Source: Acidobacteriota bacterium
GTDB lineage: Bacteria; Acidobacteriota; Aminicenantia; S016-38
Length of the DNA: 38,843 nucleotides
Assembly (NCBI GenBank): GCA_015486055.1
Contig: WFSJ01000003.1
Span: 1-38,843, forward strand
Direction of reading: 5' to 3'
Part shown: positions 14,529 through 21,027 of the stretch, piece by piece
Layout: each line of letters begins with the position of its first letter
Numbering within the stretch: the first letter of the stretch is position 1
The notes under the pieces: model-generated
What the model saw: the letters and a program-made list of their open reading frames with translations, nothing else
What the model was told of the DNA's origin: nothing
Database searches by the model: none
Program-made: the position numbers and the translations under genes

Positions 14529-17150
14529 ATGAAGAAGATTCTTATCTCAATTTTAATCTCAATTCCGATTTTTTCTGCATCACTGAGGATTCTGGTAATT
14601 GATGAATATGGAAACCCTCTCCCTGGAGTGAGGGCTGTAATAAAGGGCAAAAAAACTTACTATGCCTTCACAGCTGAAAGCGGTGTTATTTACCTTAATC
14701 TAAGGCCCGGAAACTATAGGCTTAAAGCTAACTTAAAAGGATTCTGCAGGAAAAAGGTTGATGGAATAAAAGTCCTGCCCGGAAGGAAAAACTTCTACAG
14801 AATTTCCCTAAGGCTGAGTGACCAGGAATGCTCGGAGGAGGGAAGGATGCTCCCTTCACCCACTCAGATATGGGAAATTTCAAGCTTTGAAAGCAAGGAA
14901 ACACTTTCGATGGAAGATGGAAAGCTTGGGAAAATATCCTATGAAAAGAGAGGGAATTTCTTATGGAAGGGATACGAACTTGGGAAAAGCCATTTTCTTT
15001 TTAACACTTATCCAATGACAACAGAGCTCGGGGATTATTTATACAGTTCAACGAACAGCGAAAATGTAAAAATAGAGAGAAGTGGAAACTATTGTGAGAT
15101 TTACCCTGCCCAAACAGAATTTAACCTTGATTGGCTTCCATTACAAAGTCTTTCTTTGGACCCGGAAAACCCTGATTCCCTTTCGGTCTATTTTTCTGCA
15201 GCAGTAAAGCTTAAAGGCTTTAAAACAGCGGCCTCTTATTCAAAGCTAAATGAGAAAAGGAATATTTTAGGATTTGACAGAAGGGTATCTAAAAAATCAG
15301 ACCTTCTTTATCTTGATTTTTCCCATGGAAACACAGGTTTAAGACTTCTCTACACGAAAATTGATGAGCCCTTTGAAATAAAGTATGCAAATTTCTTTCA
15401 CACTCCGGAAAACACCCCATCTTTTGTTGTAAAATCTCAGGATTTTTCCCTCTATAATTCAAAAACAGAAGGGAACTTTACCCACTTAATAACAGCGGGA
15501 ATGAGGACATTTGAAAGCAATGAGGAAATTTGGAAAGAGACTGGAATTTTCAATACAAAAACAGGCGAAGAGTCCCTTTTTGGAAACAGATACACTAGAA
15601 TGAGGGACTACTACCTGAAGGGTTCTTCCGAAATATTTATCGGCAGACTTGCAGGAGCGGAACACATAATAGAAGCTGGGGGAGAATTCGAATATGTGGG
15701 TTTGTCTTCAACATTTGGGAGTGAAAACCCGATTGTCAGATATCAGTATGGGAATACTCCTTATTTCCTCCCCTTAGGGGAACTCAGATACTGGAGGGTT
15801 TATTCTCTTGGTAAAGAGGAAAATAGGGCTTCTCACATTTCCCATATTTCCCTTTACCTCCAGGACAACTGGGGATTCGGTAATTTAAATCTACTCACAG
15901 GCCTCAGATACGACAACTATTCTTCAGGATATTGTCCAGGAATAAGGGAAGGAGTTGAAGGATGGGATTTTATAAATGGAGAGGGAAATGAGGATATTTT
16001 CTCAAGGAGGATTTTCTACTCCCTCCAAGGACTCGGGAGAGAAAACCTTGGTTTAAGGGTCGGATTTTCCTATTTGCTTCCCCACAGTTTCCTTTTTAAA
16101 GGAGGACTTTTCAGATATGTAAAATCCCTTGACTCAAAAGAGGTGCTTTCCTATTTTCCATATGTTAATGGATGGGGGGACATTTTCTGGAAGGATGTTG
16201 ACGGAAACGGTTTCCCATCGGAGAGTGAAATAGAAAATTACGGAATTTTTCCCCCTCCCCATACTGATAAGAAGGCACCAACTCCCTACTCAGATGTAAT
16301 AATTTTAGGATTGGAAAAAGCTCTACCCCTTGACATTAACTTGGGAATTCAGGCCTGGACTGAAACTTCCTCAAACACAATAGGCTTTGCAAACACATTA
16401 GTGGATTACTATGAGGGCCATTCATGGTGGGCGAATAAGAAGATACCCGAGCCCGGACCCGACGGGGTCTTCGGGACAGGGGACGACGGAACCATAATCT
16501 ATTATTATTTCACCCCCACAGAAGATATAAAAGAGTTCAAATGGAGTTTTTCTTCGGTAGCCTTAAAAACCCTGGACTCAAGCTCCAAAAGTTTAAAGTT
16601 CTATCTGAGGAGACCATTTAAGAAGGGATTTTCACTCTATTTCGATTTTACATACACAAAATTTAAAGGTTACCAAGGTGGAAATATATGGATATACTCT
16701 CCGAATCAGGTTGAAAATATAAAAGCTAATTACGGCCGTTTATCAATAAGAGCAAACGTCCTGCTTTCCCCGATCTCAAAAACATATATTTCCCTCTTCT
16801 TTCTATATGACTCAGGTATACCCTACCAAAGAAGCTTTTATGTGATTTCTGACCAGCCTTATCCATTTAACCTTCAGAAGATAACAGCCTCTGAAAAAGG
16901 ATACAGACTTTCTCCTGCCTTTAAAACTTTAAACCTCGCTCTTTCAAGGGAGATTAAGACTGGTAAGCTCTCATCAGTCATTTCCCTGAAGGTGAACAAT
17001 CTATTCAACTGGACAAGCTCCTATAACAGGATGGGAGTTCAAGGCTTCTTAACCACGGATGGAAAGTTTTATCCCCTTAATTCATTTGGAACAACAGAAA
17101 GAAAATGGGGTGGAAGGGAAATAAGGTTGGGCCTTAAGATCAAGATTTAG
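14529..17150 (+). CDS. Outer-membrane beta-barrel protein with N-terminal carboxypeptidase-regulatory-like domain
   Basis: This is an 873-aa secreted protein. A signal peptide (MKKILISILISIPIFSASL) is followed by a ~80-residue Ig-like domain of the carboxypeptidase-regulatory type (LRILVIDEYGNPLPGVRAVI through the LRPGNYRLKANLKGF segment). The rest is rich in alternating aromatic and polar strands typical of TonB-dependent/Oar-like barrels, for example ISLYLQDNWGFGNLNLLTGL then RYDNY, and VNNLFNW near the C-terminus. Two calcium-loop-like segments are visible, DVDGNGFPSESE and GPDGVFGTGDDG. I do not see a normal TonB plug with its G-x-x-x-x-x-x-RG pattern, and the protein ends in I rather than F. 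Substrate unknown. It overlaps the convergent DUF59 gene by 11 bases. Confidence 0.75.
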   Translation: MKKILISILISIPIFSASLRILVIDEYGNPLPGVRAVIKGKKTYYAFTAESGVIYLNLRPGNYRLKANLKGFCRKKVDGIKVLPGRKNFYRISLRLSDQECSEEGRMLPSPTQIWEISSFESKETLSMEDGKLGKISYEKRGNFLWKGYELGKSHFLFNTYPMTTELGDYLYSSTNSENVKIERSGNYCEIYPAQTEFNLDWLPLQSLSLDPENPDSLSVYFSAAVKLKGFKTAASYSKLNEKRNILGFDRRVSKKSDLLYLDFSHGNTGLRLLYTKIDEPFEIKYANFFHTPENTPSFVVKSQDFSLYNSKTEGNFTHLITAGMRTFESNEEIWKETGIFNTKTGEESLFGNRYTRMRDYYLKGSSEIFIGRLAGAEHIIEAGGEFEYVGLSSTFGSENPIVRYQYGNTPYFLPLGELRYWRVYSLGKEENRASHISHISLYLQDNWGFGNLNLLTGLRYDNYSSGYCPGIREGVEGWDFINGEGNEDIFSRRIFYSLQGLGRENLGLRVGFSYLLPHSFLFKGGLFRYVKSLDSKEVLSYFPYVNGWGDIFWKDVDGNGFPSESEIENYGIFPPPHTDKKAPTPYSDVIILGLEKALPLDINLGIQAWTETSSNTIGFANTLVDYYEGHSWWANKKIPEPGPDGVFGTGDDGTIIYYYFTPTEDIKEFKWSFSSVALKTLDSSSKSLKFYLRRPFKKGFSLYFDFTYTKFKGYQGGNIWIYSPNQVENIKANYGRLSIRANVLLSPISKTYISLFFLYDSGIPYQRSFYVISDQPYPFNLQKITASEKGYRLSPAFKTLNLALSREIKTGKLSSVISLKVNNLFNWTSSYNRMGVQGFLTTDGKFYPLNSFGTTERKWGGREIRLGLKIKI

Positions 17151-17466
17151 AGTTTTCTTCTTTACCCTCCTTCTTTTTGTCCAGTTCCTTTAGATATTTC
17201 ATCGCCTGGTCTGCCCATACGAAGTCTACCACCTTGATGTGGGATTCCTTAACCCCTTCAACATTTTTTACAGCATTCTTTACCATCAGAGCAAGCTGAA
17301 TTCCTATAGGGCAGAAATATGTAGTCGGCCTTACAACAAGGGATACTTTCCCTGCTTTTTCATCAACTTCAAGGTCCTTTACTATCTGAAGGGTCAGGAC
17401 ATCCTGGCGGAGCTCAGGGTCATAAACCATCCTGAGAGCTTCGATTACCTTGTCCTTAAGACCCAT
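17140..17466 (-). CDS. MIP18/DUF59 family protein (Fe-S assembly related)
   Basis: This 108-aa protein belongs to the DUF59/MIP18 family of Fe-S cluster assembly and maturation factors (SufT/PaaD-like). It begins with a helix, then the VYDPELRQDVLTLQIVKDL segment that corresponds to the usual Y-D-P-E-x-x-x-x-I-x-x-L-G-L-V, then TTYFCPIG holding the conserved cysteine, then V-E-G-V-K-E-S-H-I-K-V. The tail is lysine/glutamate-rich. It is the last gene of the four-gene minus operon from 19562 and overlaps its upstream neighbour by 11 bases. The context with two ferredoxin-type MinD ATPases and a NifX-like protein suggests metal-cluster handling. The exact target is unknown. Confidence 0.82.
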   Translation of the reverse strand: MGLKDKVIEALRMVYDPELRQDVLTLQIVKDLEVDEKAGKVSLVVRPTTYFCPIGIQLALMVKNAVKNVEGVKESHIKVVDFVWADQAMKYLKELDKKKEGKEENSKS

Positions 17467-18346
17467 CTACCACCTCTATGATTTTTGAAAATACATGCCC
17501 TAAATTCTCAGCCACAGAGGAACAGGCTGAAGCAGCCACTTCCTTCTTCACGAGGGCATCCACTACACATCTATCAAAGGGAACTTCTCCAAGGAAAGGA
17601 ATACCCCTCTTGTCAGCATATTCCCTTACCTGTTTTTCATTCTCTTTATTTAGTCCTGCCTTGTTCATTATTATCCCATGGGGAACCCTGAAATGGGCAG
17701 CTGTCTCTATTGCCCTTTCCATGTCGTGAATCGCGGAAAATGAAGGCTCAGCAACAACTGCCACGAAAGTCGCCCCTGAAATTGAAGATATAACAGGACA
17801 TCCTATTCCAGGAGGACCATCAACTATTATATAAGGAATTTCCTCCCTTTCTGATAAGAGATGAGCTTGATGTTTCACCATCGTAACAAGGTTTCCCGAG
17901 TTTTCAGCCCCAGGATTTAATTTCGCGTGGACCATTAGACCGAATTTTGTATTTGAAATGGCCCATTTGCCAACGATCTGGGGAACCATAACTATGGCAT
18001 TTACAGGGCAAGCTATTTCGCAAAGAGTGCATCCATCGCATTTTACGGGGTCTATCTGATAAACATCTTCAGCTATCGAGATCGCATCAAAACGGCAAAG
18101 CTGCCTGCATATATCGCAATAGGTACAAAGGGAATCATCTATTTCAGCAACTGATTTCCCTATGAATTCCTCTTCCCTTTTAATCTCAGGCTCGAGGAGT
18201 ATGTGCATATCCGCTGCATCAACATCTGCATCGGCTATAACAAACCCTTTGCCTTTTTTATGAAGCCAGTATGCGAAGGAAGAGGTTATAGTCGTTTTTC
18301 CTGTTCCTCCCTTCCCGCTTATTATCACCATTTCCTTGGCTTTCAT
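17456..18346 (-). CDS. MinD/Mrp-type ATPase with 2x[4Fe-4S] ferredoxin insert (copy 2)
   Basis: This 296-aa P-loop ATPase has the deviant Walker A ISGKGGTGKTT (residues ~10-19), a DADVDAADMH segment and the VDGPPGIGCPVISS switch region. A two-cluster ferredoxin insert follows the first strand: CTYCDICRQLC and CDGCTLCEIACP, each with the Cx2Cx2Cx3C spacing. This architecture is common in anaerobes and archaea. It is paralogous to the next gene upstream, with which it overlaps by four bases. Related pairs occur beside NifX-like 'orange protein' genes in Desulfovibrio, as recalled. The biochemical role is not established; ATP-dependent metal-cluster transfer is an inference. Confidence 0.88.
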   Translation of the reverse strand: MKAKEMVIISGKGGTGKTTITSSFAYWLHKKGKGFVIADADVDAADMHILLEPEIKREEEFIGKSVAEIDDSLCTYCDICRQLCRFDAISIAEDVYQIDPVKCDGCTLCEIACPVNAIVMVPQIVGKWAISNTKFGLMVHAKLNPGAENSGNLVTMVKHQAHLLSEREEIPYIIVDGPPGIGCPVISSISGATFVAVVAEPSFSAIHDMERAIETAAHFRVPHGIIMNKAGLNKENEKQVREYADKRGIPFLGEVPFDRCVVDALVKKEVAASACSSVAENLGHVFSKIIEVVDGS

Positions 18347-19182
18347 CCCGCAATCTCCTTTATTCTCTTATAAACCTTTCTGAATCCTTCCTCAAATTCT
18401 CCGAATGGAAGTTCTCCTCTGGAATACATCCTTGCAATCTCTTCTGAAAATGGAATTCTGTAAAGGATCTCCATACCTTTGCTTTCTGCAAAATCCTCCA
18501 CAAGGGTGTTCCCTTCTTGAGCCTTGTTTATGATTATCCCATGAGGAAGGGAAAGCATCTCAATCATTTCAACAACAAGGGAAAGATCATGGACTCCAAA
18601 GGGGGTAGGCTCTGCAACAAGAAGCACATAATTCGTCTCCTCAACTGCCTCAACAACAGGACAAGAGGTACCAGGAGGAGCGTCAATTATCACATCCCCG
18701 GGATAATTCTTTACCCTCCTCTTGAGCTCCCTTATCAAGGGAACAGCAGAAGCCTCACCCAGGTTCAATACCCCTTCCATAAAATCAATTTCCCCTGATT
18801 TCCCCCTCCTTATTATCCCCTTTTTCCTTGGAACCTCAATTAAAGCTCCCTTCTCAGGGCAAACATAAGCACATACCCCACATGAATGGCAGAGTTCAGG
18901 AAAGAATAGAGTCTTCTTCGCAGGGGGAGGAATTATGACTAGCGCCTTGTAAGGGCAAGCCTTTGCACATTCCCCACAGTATGTACACTTTCCAGGGATT
19001 ATTCTTGGTACAGGCTCTGTAAAATCCTCAACTGAGTTTACAGTGGGTTTAAGGAATATAGCTCCGTTTGGCTCTTCAACATCAGCATCAACATAGAAAG
19101 AAGGGGCTATCGCTTTGGAAAAAAGAAGAGAAAACGTTGTCTTTCCAGTTCCACCCTTACCGCTGGCAACAGCTATTTTCAT
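18343..19182 (-). CDS. MinD/Mrp-type ATPase with 2x[4Fe-4S] ferredoxin insert (copy 1)
   Basis: This 279-aa protein has the same architecture as its neighbour: VASGKGGTGKTTFS P-loop at the N-terminus, DADVEEPNGAIF, a ferredoxin insert with CTYCGECAKACP and CHSCGVCAYVCP, and IIDAPPGTSCPVVEAV. Sequence divergence from the neighbour is large, so the two are old paralogues that may form a heterodimer. The start overlaps the stop of the NifX-like gene (19179-19182) and its stop overlaps the next ATPase gene, so all are co-translated. The function is inferred only from family and context. Confidence 0.88.
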   Translation of the reverse strand: MKIAVASGKGGTGKTTFSLLFSKAIAPSFYVDADVEEPNGAIFLKPTVNSVEDFTEPVPRIIPGKCTYCGECAKACPYKALVIIPPPAKKTLFFPELCHSCGVCAYVCPEKGALIEVPRKKGIIRRGKSGEIDFMEGVLNLGEASAVPLIRELKRRVKNYPGDVIIDAPPGTSCPVVEAVEETNYVLLVAEPTPFGVHDLSLVVEMIEMLSLPHGIIINKAQEGNTLVEDFAESKGMEILYRIPFSEEIARMYSRGELPFGEFEEGFRKVYKRIKEIAG

Positions 19183-19562
19183 TTCAATTCTTTCTCTATC
19201 TTCTCCGCAACCTCTCTGGGAGTTGCTTCCCTGAACTCCTCAAGCTCTCCTGAAAGTAGGCTTTCCACAGCTTCCTTTACAGTTTGACCTTCTTTTGCCC
19301 TGTGCATTTTAGTCCCAGCTGCTTTCAAAACCTCAAAGGCATTTGGACCGAAATTTCCTGAAATGGCTGCTTCTACCCCATTTTCTATGGCGATTTGAGC
19401 AAAAGATATTCCTACTGCAATTCTACCTTCCTTATGGGGATTTTTCCCTCCGATTACCTTCCCTGTTTCAGTATCATATATGACGTAGTATTCAGCCCTC
19501 CCAAATCTTGGGTCAACAATTGAATCAATGGCATTTCCTTTAGCTGTTATAAATATTTTCAT
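19179..19562 (-). CDS. NifX/NifB-type metal-cluster-binding domain protein (DUF/COG1433-like)
   Basis: This 127-aa protein carries the dinitrogenase iron-molybdenum-cofactor-binding fold seen in NifX, NafY and the Desulfovibrio orange protein. It begins KIFITAKGNAIDSIVDPRFGRAEYYVIYD, split by the usual D-x-R-F-G-R-A motif, and later has AIENGVEAAISGNFGPNAFE and a GTKMHRA-like segment. It is the first gene of the operon with two ferredoxin-type MinD ATPases and a DUF59 protein. No other nitrogen-fixation genes are near, so a nitrogenase role is unlikely. Start ATG at 19562 has a GAGGT ribosome-binding site seven bases upstream. Confidence 0.88.
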   Translation of the reverse strand: MKIFITAKGNAIDSIVDPRFGRAEYYVIYDTETGKVIGGKNPHKEGRIAVGISFAQIAIENGVEAAISGNFGPNAFEVLKAAGTKMHRAKEGQTVKEAVESLLSGELEEFREATPREVAEKIEKELK

Positions 19563-19581: not shown

Positions 19582-19610
19582 ATTTTATCACTTGAGTCAA
19601 AAACTTTGAA
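19582..19610 (-). promoter_or_regulatory. Putative sigma-70 promoter of the NifX/MinD operon
   Basis: On the minus strand TTCAAA (19610-19605) and TAAAAT (19587-19582) are separated by 17 bp. The transcript would have a leader of about 15-18 bases holding the GAGGT ribosome-binding site before ATG 19562. The -35 overlaps the TTG (19606) proposed as start of the divergent gene, which makes the downstream ATG at 19642 a reasonable alternative for that gene. Confidence 0.4.
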
Positions 19611-21027
19611 AAAAGGGCGAGTTTATGTTAAAAATAGAGTTATGAAAGATGTTACTCATATAACAGCCTATTTTAAAGAAGAGGAAGTTGAGACAAAGGA
19701 TAAACTTCTTGAGACCTTCCTTAAGGAAGTAGAGGAAAATGCTCTTATCCCATTTCTCTTTGAATGGGAAATGCTCATAAGATCAATTCAGCTTTTCCCT
19801 GTGGTAAATTTTCACATCCTCTCAGAGGAGATAAAGAACTCGGTTATAAGGAAAAATTTCAACCCGGAGCTCAATTCCCTTGAGGATATTGTAAACAGGC
19901 TCTCGTTGCTTTCCATAAGACTCGAAAACAGAAATTCCGAGTTCTATACGGAGTTTGAGGATTTCATAGAAGAATATTTCATGAGGAAATACGGCATAAT
20001 GACCCTTGAAATAAAAAAGAAAAAGAAAGATGACTACTGGACTATGATTTCGTATGCTACTGAGCTTTTCCTTGACTGGAGAAATGTGCTTTCTCAAATA
20101 AAGGAAAAAAGCCTTATCCAATATCAAGTATTCTTCTCAGCAACGAGAAGAATAGTAAGGGAAGTCAACAGAATACCTCTTCTTCAGGATTTTCTTCTCA
20201 AAAGATTCAAAAGGCCCCTTGACAGAATATCGGTGAAAGAAATAACGGATCTAATATCCTCAATAAAGGAGAAAAATGAAAGGAGAAGAATAGCCCTTGT
20301 ATTCCTCCTGATATCAAAGCTCATAAAATTCCTTGACCATCTTGAAAATCTTGCAAGGATGGATCCTCTACCCATGAGGTATTATCCGATATTGATACTT
20401 ACAAAATACGAATATTCTCTTTTAATGAAAGTCATGGACACAAATAGAAAAACGGTAAAAAAGCTCAAACCCCCTATGGAGAGACTTCTTGTGCCTCTGA
20501 ATGAAGAATTTAAGAAGGTATTCTACGGTGAACTACTGAATATAAGCTTGGTAAATGTGCCAAGCAAAATAAGAAGCAAAATTGGAAAGTCCGTTTTCCT
20601 TCTGAAATCACTACTCCAGGAATCTGTCATGGAAACAATAAAGTTCTACAACAAAGAAGTTAGCAAGGAATCCCTGTTTCCTTCCCACATAGGAAGAAAG
20701 GAGCAAACTGAATTGGCAATAAACAATTTGGAATCAATAATAGCTCATATTGATGTTCTGCTTTCTAAGGGTAAGGTTGAAAGATACGAGGCGGAGGAAA
20801 TGATAAGCTCCCTTGAGAAAAATGTAATGCACCTCCTTCTTTATAAGGATTGGGAAACCCTTGAAAGAGTATTTTCAGAGATAAGAAGAGCCCTTACCAA
20901 GAGGGAAATATTTACGAAGGTTGCAAACCTTAAAAATTTGCTTCTTTACATCAGGGAAGAAATTAAAAAAAGAAAGGAGCTCAATATAGAACCCGAAGGA
21001 GAAAAAGGCCCTGAGGGGGAGCAGTAG
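19606..21027 (+). CDS. Unrecognised 473-aa, probably all-helical protein
   Basis: I do not recognise this protein. The sequence is rich in Lys, Glu, Leu and Ile with heptad-like spacing and almost no glycine or cysteine in its core, so an all-alpha cytoplasmic fold is likely. There is no signal peptide or membrane helix. The C-terminus ends in an acidic, glycine-containing tail (EPEGEKGPEGEQ). The TTG at 19606 is the longest possible start, but it lies on a putative promoter element for the divergent operon; ATG at 19642 is an alternative and has an AT-rich -10-like element six bases before it. The gene is divergent from the NifX/MinD operon by 43 bp and overlaps convergent truA by 47 bp. Confidence 0.75.
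   Translation: MKKGRVYVKNRVMKDVTHITAYFKEEEVETKDKLLETFLKEVEENALIPFLFEWEMLIRSIQLFPVVNFHILSEEIKNSVIRKNFNPELNSLEDIVNRLSLLSIRLENRNSEFYTEFEDFIEEYFMRKYGIMTLEIKKKKKDDYWTMISYATELFLDWRNVLSQIKEKSLIQYQVFFSATRRIVREVNRIPLLQDFLLKRFKRPLDRISVKEITDLISSIKEKNERRRIALVFLLISKLIKFLDHLENLARMDPLPMRYYPILILTKYEYSLLMKVMDTNRKTVKKLKPPMERLLVPLNEEFKKVFYGELLNISLVNVPSKIRSKIGKSVFLLKSLLQESVMETIKFYNKEVSKESLFPSHIGRKEQTELAINNLESIIAHIDVLLSKGKVERYEAEEMISSLEKNVMHLLLYKDWETLERVFSEIRRALTKREIFTKVANLKNLLLYIREEIKKRKELNIEPEGEKGPEGEQ

Follow-up and report, generated by a model that had tools for sequence, protein, structure and literature searches.

What does an operon that joins a NifX-like protein, two ferredoxin-bearing ATPases and a DUF59 protein do for the bacterium that carries it? 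The question is raised by a locus of an Acidobacteriota bacterium (NCBI GenBank assembly GCA_015486055.1, contig WFSJ01000003.1), of which we analysed positions 1 to 38,843; this whole stretch of 38,843 nucleotides (nt) is called the window, and all coordinates refer to it. The four genes form one minus-strand run from 19562 to 17140, and successive genes overlap by 4, 4 and 11 nt. The original prediction had proposed just such a set of overlapping genes, made up of a NifX-like gene, two ATPase genes with ferredoxin inserts and a DUF59 gene, and the open reading frames, their overlaps and the Pfam matches confirm it. Our reading, to which we give a probability of roughly 0.55, is that these genes code for the core of an anaerobe complex of the type known for the orange protein (ORP) of Desulfovibrio, which would be an ATP-driven machine for loading or mobilizing iron-sulfur (Fe-S) material.

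The first gene of the run (19179 to 19562) encodes the NifX-like protein of 127 amino acids (aa), which matches PF02579 with 70 bits as well as the structures 1RDU, 2WFB (ORP) and 1EO1, and which has neither a cysteine-rich motif nor a C-terminal tail. The next two genes encode ATPases of the Orp3/Orp4 type: ATPase1 (18343 to 19182, 279 aa) has CbiA and two Fer4 domains, and ATPase2 (17456 to 18346, 296 aa) has ParA/CbiA and two Fer4 domains. The last gene (17140 to 17466) encodes the DUF59 protein of 108 aa, which matches PF01883 with 50 bits and, by motif count, carries RPTTYFCP.

The first three genes of the run encode the core of the Desulfovibrio ORP complex, with the NifX-like protein as Orp8 and the ATPases as the Orp3/Orp4 pair. 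The MrpORP profile NF041136 was run against a sample of 148 genomes from the phylum to which a Desulfobacterales genome belongs, and it scored above its cut-off in 21 of them. We fetched 20 stretches around strong matches, one of which (G124) lay below the cut-off. Both ATPases were present in 12 of the 20 stretches, a cut ATPase1 was present in L187, and neither ATPase was found in seven (L181, L184, L188, L189, L192, L193 and L195). Since the same two ATPases accompany MrpORP in 12 of 20 stretches, the window pair corresponds to Orp3/Orp4, and the likeness to the gene set around the Desulfovibrio orange protein, which the original prediction had pointed out, is borne out. For Desulfovibrio, systematic co-purification of Orp3 with Orp4 and with Orp8 is reported, as is the loading of these proteins with Fe-S by MrpORP in vitro (PMC6345978). 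The operon encodes a slimmed-down ORP-type complex, and the finding belongs to a known kind.

Next, we determined how far the arrangement is conserved. The close comparison set comprised 21 genomes, namely the window's own (1.86 Mb, 98.9% complete) and 20 relatives. ATPase1 was found in 15 of these, always with ATPase2 on the same contig, and was not found in the other six (G010, G011, G016, G019, G020 and G002, the last being 83% complete). The four-gene unit was intact in 10 of the 15 pair-bearing genomes: the window's and those of nine relatives (G001, G003, G004, G005, G007, G012, G015, G017 and G018). It was split over two contigs in G006, while G008, G009, G013 and G014 have the ATPase pair without DUF59. 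With ten intact copies and a split one in G006, the arrangement is not due to chance; the linkage in relatives on which the original prediction had staked its case is there.

For more distant loci, genome_contigs was scanned, and the best 80 of at least 300 confirmed ATPase1 relatives were taken. These loci come from archaea (Methanosarcina, Bathyarchaeota, Heimdallarchaeota) as well as from many bacterial phyla. ATPase2 lay beside ATPase1 in 77 of the 80, and in the remaining three (L065, L098 and L101) the contig stops just past ATPase1. DUF59 was present in only four (L064, L083, L119 and L126). NifX and the ATPase pair travel together widely; DUF59 stands outside the general set. When the 80 distant loci were joined with 12 loci of relatives (excluding L056, whose contig appears to be that of L110, and the two G006 pieces), NifX lay within 6.5 kb of the pair in 85 of the 92. 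Genes for Mrp neighboured the pair in 35 of these loci, radical SAM proteins in 16, IscU-like proteins in 13 and Fur-like proteins in 11; neighbour families were assigned by a Pfam run on 150 neighbour proteins. The count for neighbours labelled EBP, 15 of 92, is too high, as this label is false at L045-L047, where Pfam gave a ClpB-like AAA protein for L045.

We then asked whether the two ATPases act as a pair. The 100 ATPase1 and 94 ATPase2 sequences of 250–345 aa yielded 93 loci with both (L090 and L182 are identical among them). FastTree split the 93 pairs exactly into an ATPase1 and an ATPase2 clade (support 100, branch 0.93). Pairwise distances in the two clades were correlated (r = 0.83 over 4278 pairs, and 0.80 without the window's kin), a correlation that could also come from shared descent alone. 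The locus of G017, a genome of the same class, paired in the tree with a Candidatus Aminicenantes locus (support 99), so the window probably stems from an Aminicenantes-like bacterium. Because the 93 paired loci form two clean sister clades, the natural reading is that ATPase1 and ATPase2 would be an obligate heterodimer. A heterodimer had been raised as a possibility in the original prediction; the pairing in 77 of 80 loci, the two-clade tree of 93 loci and the published co-purification of Orp3 with Orp4 support it.

The conserved residues are alike in both proteins. In ATPase1, the deviant Walker A motif GKGGTGKT (residues 8–15; 19138 to 19161) was invariant in 74 sequences, and in ATPase2 the same motif (residues 11–18; 18293 to 18316) was conserved in 69 sequences. 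Cysteine conservation was counted in the alignment of the 93 paired loci. The eight cysteines of the ferredoxin insert were present in 93/93 for ATPase1 (Cys66 to Cys108; 18859 to 18987) and in 93/93 for ATPase2 (Cys74 to Cys113; 18008 to 18127) apart from Cys77 (91/93). A further cysteine in switch II, seven residues past the Walker-B Asp, was found in 93/93 in both: Cys174 of ATPase1 (18661 to 18663) and Cys183 of ATPase2 (17798 to 17800). When compared by global alignment with a profile of four NifH-family proteins, Cys174 and Cys183 fell on the NifH cluster cysteine (probability 97.3 and 98.6, respectively). In NifH, this cysteine ligates the cluster, and each subunit has a second cluster cysteine. 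At the same place, 59 of 59 Mrp proteins have Asp. We found no earlier description of invariant switch-II cysteines in both ATPases, and report them as new here.

The AlphaFold models were confident (pLDDT 96.8 for ATPase1 and 96.9 for ATPase2). The predicted fold of ATPase1 matched ApbC (Z 23.1, rmsd 2.8, 209 aligned residues), HypB (Z 22.6, rmsd 3.0, 204), MinD (Z 22.6, rmsd 3.0, 210), BchL (Z 22.0, rmsd 3.1, 214) and NifH (Z 21.4, rmsd 2.9, 212); ATPase2, compared by Foldseek only, matched the same fold families. As the five matches are nearly equal, the fold alone does not select a function.

IssA of Pyrococcus furiosus is a protein of 179 aa whose 70-aa tail, made of Pro, Gly, aromatic and cationic residues, binds thioferrate. 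According to its authors, thioferrate consists of ferric sulfide chains, which might be activated by reduction; they leave open by which route the cell makes Fe-S clusters from it. The window's genome has a second NifX cluster on another contig (C19; L060:9018-10684), which encodes a weak NifX match, a Gly/Arg-rich protein, a NifX protein and a tailed, IssA-like NifX. The tail of the latter is rich in Pro/Gly and then in Arg/Trp/Gly, and its frame continues to the contig end; its versions in relatives measure 171–188 aa, that of L207 being cut by a contig end. These genes are counterparts of those in G012, where a tailed NifX gene, a NifX-DUF5320 fusion, a weak NifX match and a gene for a Gly-rich protein lie upstream of a core in the order NifX-ATPase1-ATPase2-DUF59-NifX, in a cluster that also holds a divergent sigma54 activator and Mrp. 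Searched for with a profile of the NifX domain alone, tailed NifX proteins were found in 7 of 9 second loci, 16 of the 80 genome_contigs loci, 6 of the 20 MrpORP stretches and 1 of 13 relatives' loci.

The Gly/Arg-rich family DUF5320 recurs in the same places. In Pfam, it matched 21 of the 150 scanned neighbours. Our own profile is looser than that of Pfam, so its counts are upper estimates; in the 80 loci, 36 of its 52 matches lay within 2 kb upstream of ATPase1, and the 4–8 kb flanks of both sides together held 2. Both DUF5320 and NifX were concentrated within 4 kb of ATPase1 and rare farther out. DUF5320 or a tailed NifX was present in 52 of the 80 genome_contigs loci, 10 of the 12 MrpORP loci with ATPase1 and 5 of the 13 relatives' loci. 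L048:7985-8614 encodes a NifX domain and a DUF5320 region within a single protein. Co-occurrence with the ATPase pair was evaluated among the 21 genomes, taking a match to the window genome's own C19b at E below 1e-15 as presence of the IssA-like NifX. Both were present in 11 genomes and neither in 5; the pair stood alone in G006, G009, G014 and G017, and the IssA-like NifX alone in G002, the genome that is 83% complete. This association is weak and uncorrected for relatedness (Fisher p = 0.046). The loci are enriched in Gly/Arg-rich proteins that resemble the thioferrate-binding tail of IssA, which is new here, and the surroundings of the ATPase genes suggest a connection to proteins of iron-sulfur storage. 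We found no description of a gene linkage between IssA and these ATPases in the accessible parts of the open-access literature searched; within the part of PMC6345978 that is accessible, IssA appears only as a contrast.

DUF59 proteins act in Fe-S maturation, and from this family membership we infer a carrier role for the window protein. In every locus with DUF59 the gene lies directly behind ATPase2, except in L190, where another stretch intervenes. Its presence changes five times on the ATPase tree. The motif [RH]P[ST]xxxCP was found in 16 of 17 linked DUF59 proteins (that of L048 deviates by a K) and in neither of the two other DUF59 proteins of the window's genome, while DLGLI was absent from all 17. 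Because the motif is common and DLGLI is missing despite five changes of state, the linked proteins look like one subfamily, repeatedly gained or lost. A description of the DUF59-bearing version of the operon was not found in the open-access literature searched. That DUF59 replaces Mrp was considered and dropped. In the 92 loci, 13 had DUF59, 35 had Mrp and one had both (hypergeometric p = 0.012); once the MrpORP loci were included, 15 of 93 loci had DUF59, 46 had Mrp and three had both, and a tree-aware test of independent pairs gave p = 1.

Onto the observed gene content, linkage, pairing and conserved residues, and the predicted folds, our reading places the following steps. ATPase1 and ATPase2 would be obligate partners in a heterodimer, which closes on ATP and carries four [4Fe-4S] ferredoxin clusters. 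Each subunit would also contribute one cysteine to a pair located where part of the bridging cluster sits in the nitrogenase Fe protein. An inorganic metal-sulfide species, most likely Fe-S, would be held by the NifX-like protein, a scaffold that offers no cysteine ligands, and closing on ATP would pass electrons, Fe-S units or both between heterodimer and scaffold. The DUF59 protein may be a dedicated carrier or targeting factor, acting in addition to, or in place of, the Mrp-type carrier known from Desulfovibrio, and the second locus of the same genome may supply an IssA-like, Gly/Arg-tailed NifX store. The direction of transfer, the role of ATP, the role of DUF59 and the metal are what we infer here. 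Several points weigh against this reading. The ligands of the NifX family are diverse (Mo-Cu, thioferrate, 3Fe-4S), so that the sequence cannot name the metal. No universally conserved cysteine outside the ferredoxin insert could be the counterpart of the second NifH cluster cysteine. Of the 80 distant loci, 76 have no DUF59, and the seeming avoidance of Mrp by DUF59 was lost with more loci and the tree. Finally, the published biochemistry concerns the Desulfovibrio complex.

A bolder and tentative form of the proposal is that the pair opens the Fe-S stores of anaerobes. Here, an ATP-gated, ferredoxin-loaded heterodimer would reduce ferric thioferrate held on IssA/NifX scaffolds and their Gly/Arg-rich partners (tails and DUF5320) and would pass Fe-S units to carriers, either DUF59 or Mrp. 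We regard this as possible, though doubtful. If true, the ORP complex and IssA would be the two parts of a single, widespread system that stores and releases iron-sulfur material; more than ten years of work on the ORP complex have not settled its function. The gene neighbourhoods suggest such a tie across bacteria and archaea.

Other explanations share parts of the evidence. If the NifX-like protein held a Mo-Cu sulfide cluster, as does the Desulfovibrio ORP, or another heterometal, the ATPases would build or use that cluster; the gene set equals that of the ORP complex, and the sequence match to the ORP structure 2WFB is clear (E = 4.8e-17). However, TM1290 is the nearer match (E = 1.2e-20), and the window's genome has no match to ModA (WtpA and TupA were not searched for) and no MoaA above the cut-off, which makes this device very unlikely and leaves the Mo-Cu hint of the original prediction unsupported. 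The genome encodes one SufB/D-type protein, and Fe-S is the economical reading for the metal. The ATPases could also be a NifH-like gate that lifts ferredoxin electrons to low potential for some other enzyme, with the NifX-like protein only as docking partner or electron acceptor. The ferredoxin inserts, the switch-II cysteine at the NifH position and the NifH/BchL fold agree with such a donor, but the genome has no NifDK-type acceptor and the constant company of the pair consists of scaffold and carrier genes, with no enzyme; we consider it unlikely.

Similarly improbable is a plain Fe-S assembly scaffold, an anaerobe counterpart of Cfd1-Nbp35 that would build [4Fe-4S] clusters for the cell at large, with DUF59 for targeting and no store. 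IscU-like and Mrp genes do neighbour the pair, DUF59 belongs to Fe-S maturation by family, and the accessible part of PMC6345978 places Nbp35/Cfd1 there as well; but the two ATPases have no conserved CXXC in the alignment of 93 pairs, and the ferredoxin inserts and Gly/Arg-rich partners would be left unexplained. Finally, the MinD-like ATPases might place the septum or the poles, using Fe-S clusters as sensors. MinD is among the top fold matches, and in the accessible parts of their papers the ORP authors report polar MrpORP (PMC6345978, PMC4672049, PMC3897727) and propose a cell-division role, which is called putative in the first paper and repeated in the other two. However, NifH, BchL, ApbC and HypB match ATPase1 equally well, and the neighbours are Fe-S and metal genes. 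In addition, ATPase1 aligns up to MinD residue 249 and has two residues left, which would seem to leave no room for a membrane helix (judged for ATPase1 only and from alignment ranges only). A positioning device is thus highly improbable. Archaeoglobus homologues were earlier linked to syntrophic growth of D. vulgaris (PMC3949148, accessible part).

The remaining context of the operon is as follows. The original prediction had noted that nitrogenase genes are not nearby, and indeed the NifDK family (PF00148) has no match anywhere in the window's genome. This genome has six PF02579 matches, three DUF59 matches (one fused to Mrp) and a single ATPase pair, the remaining profile matches being ferredoxin-type stretches only. 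The 3′ end of the DUF59 gene meets a plus-strand gene (14529 to 17150) tail to tail with an 11-nt overlap. No sigma54-like (-24/-12) promoter was found near the operon (4 matches in the window, 5.8 expected), and scans for sigma70 promoters and terminators stayed at chance level. The divergent neighbour (19606 to 21027, 473 aa) has no Pfam or NCBIfam match, and a divergent counterpart occurs in G001. Elsewhere in the genome, a NifX gene overlaps a PadR-type regulator gene (L059:5883-6652), and an ARMT1-like phosphatase gene (PF01937) lies near another NifX gene (L061:7257-8108); the same phosphatase family follows the operon in family f2 (L049-L051). The radical SAM protein that recurs in 16 of the 92 loci carries the motif YGPVPSRR (e.g., L055, L057, L140 and L179), and its gene sits between ATPase1 and ATPase2 in L057, L140 and L179. 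In genus g2 (L045-L047), a divergent TauE/SafE exporter gene (PF01925, checked in L045) adjoins the operon, and an epimerase and DUF1848 follow DUF59.

How does the operon compare with known systems? With NifH and BchL, the ATPases share the fold and the invariant cysteine after Walker B that falls on the NifH cluster cysteine; they differ in the ferredoxin insert, the probable heterodimer, the missing counterpart of the second NifH cluster cysteine and a genome without a NifDK-type partner. With Mrp, ApbC and Nbp35-Cfd1, they share the superfamily, a probable dimer and the Fe-S context, but they lack a conserved CXXC, have Cys in place of Asp after switch II and carry the added ferredoxin insert. 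The DUF59 protein has the PF01883 domain and the DPE and CP motifs of SufT/MIP18 proteins, but it scores far below the cut-off of the SufT equivalog TIGR02945 (55.4 versus 143.4 bits), has RP[ST]xxxCP and lacks DLGLI. IssA shares the NifX domain; unlike IssA, the NifX-like protein of the operon is untailed, and the tailed protein of the window's genome, which relatives also have and which would be IssA-like by its tail sequence, is encoded on another contig. The closest system is the ORP complex of Desulfovibrio vulgaris, which comprises Orp3, Orp4, Orp5, Orp8 and Orp9/MrpORP. In contrast to the full Desulfovibrio cluster, with its divergent operons under a sigma54 activator, the window operon has no sigma54 activator, MrpORP or evident Orp5 beside it (the Mrp of contig C18 contains DUF59 and lacks a NifX domain), and it has DUF59; both systems have a one-domain NifX-like protein (Orp8) together with two P-loop ATPases that bear ferredoxin inserts.

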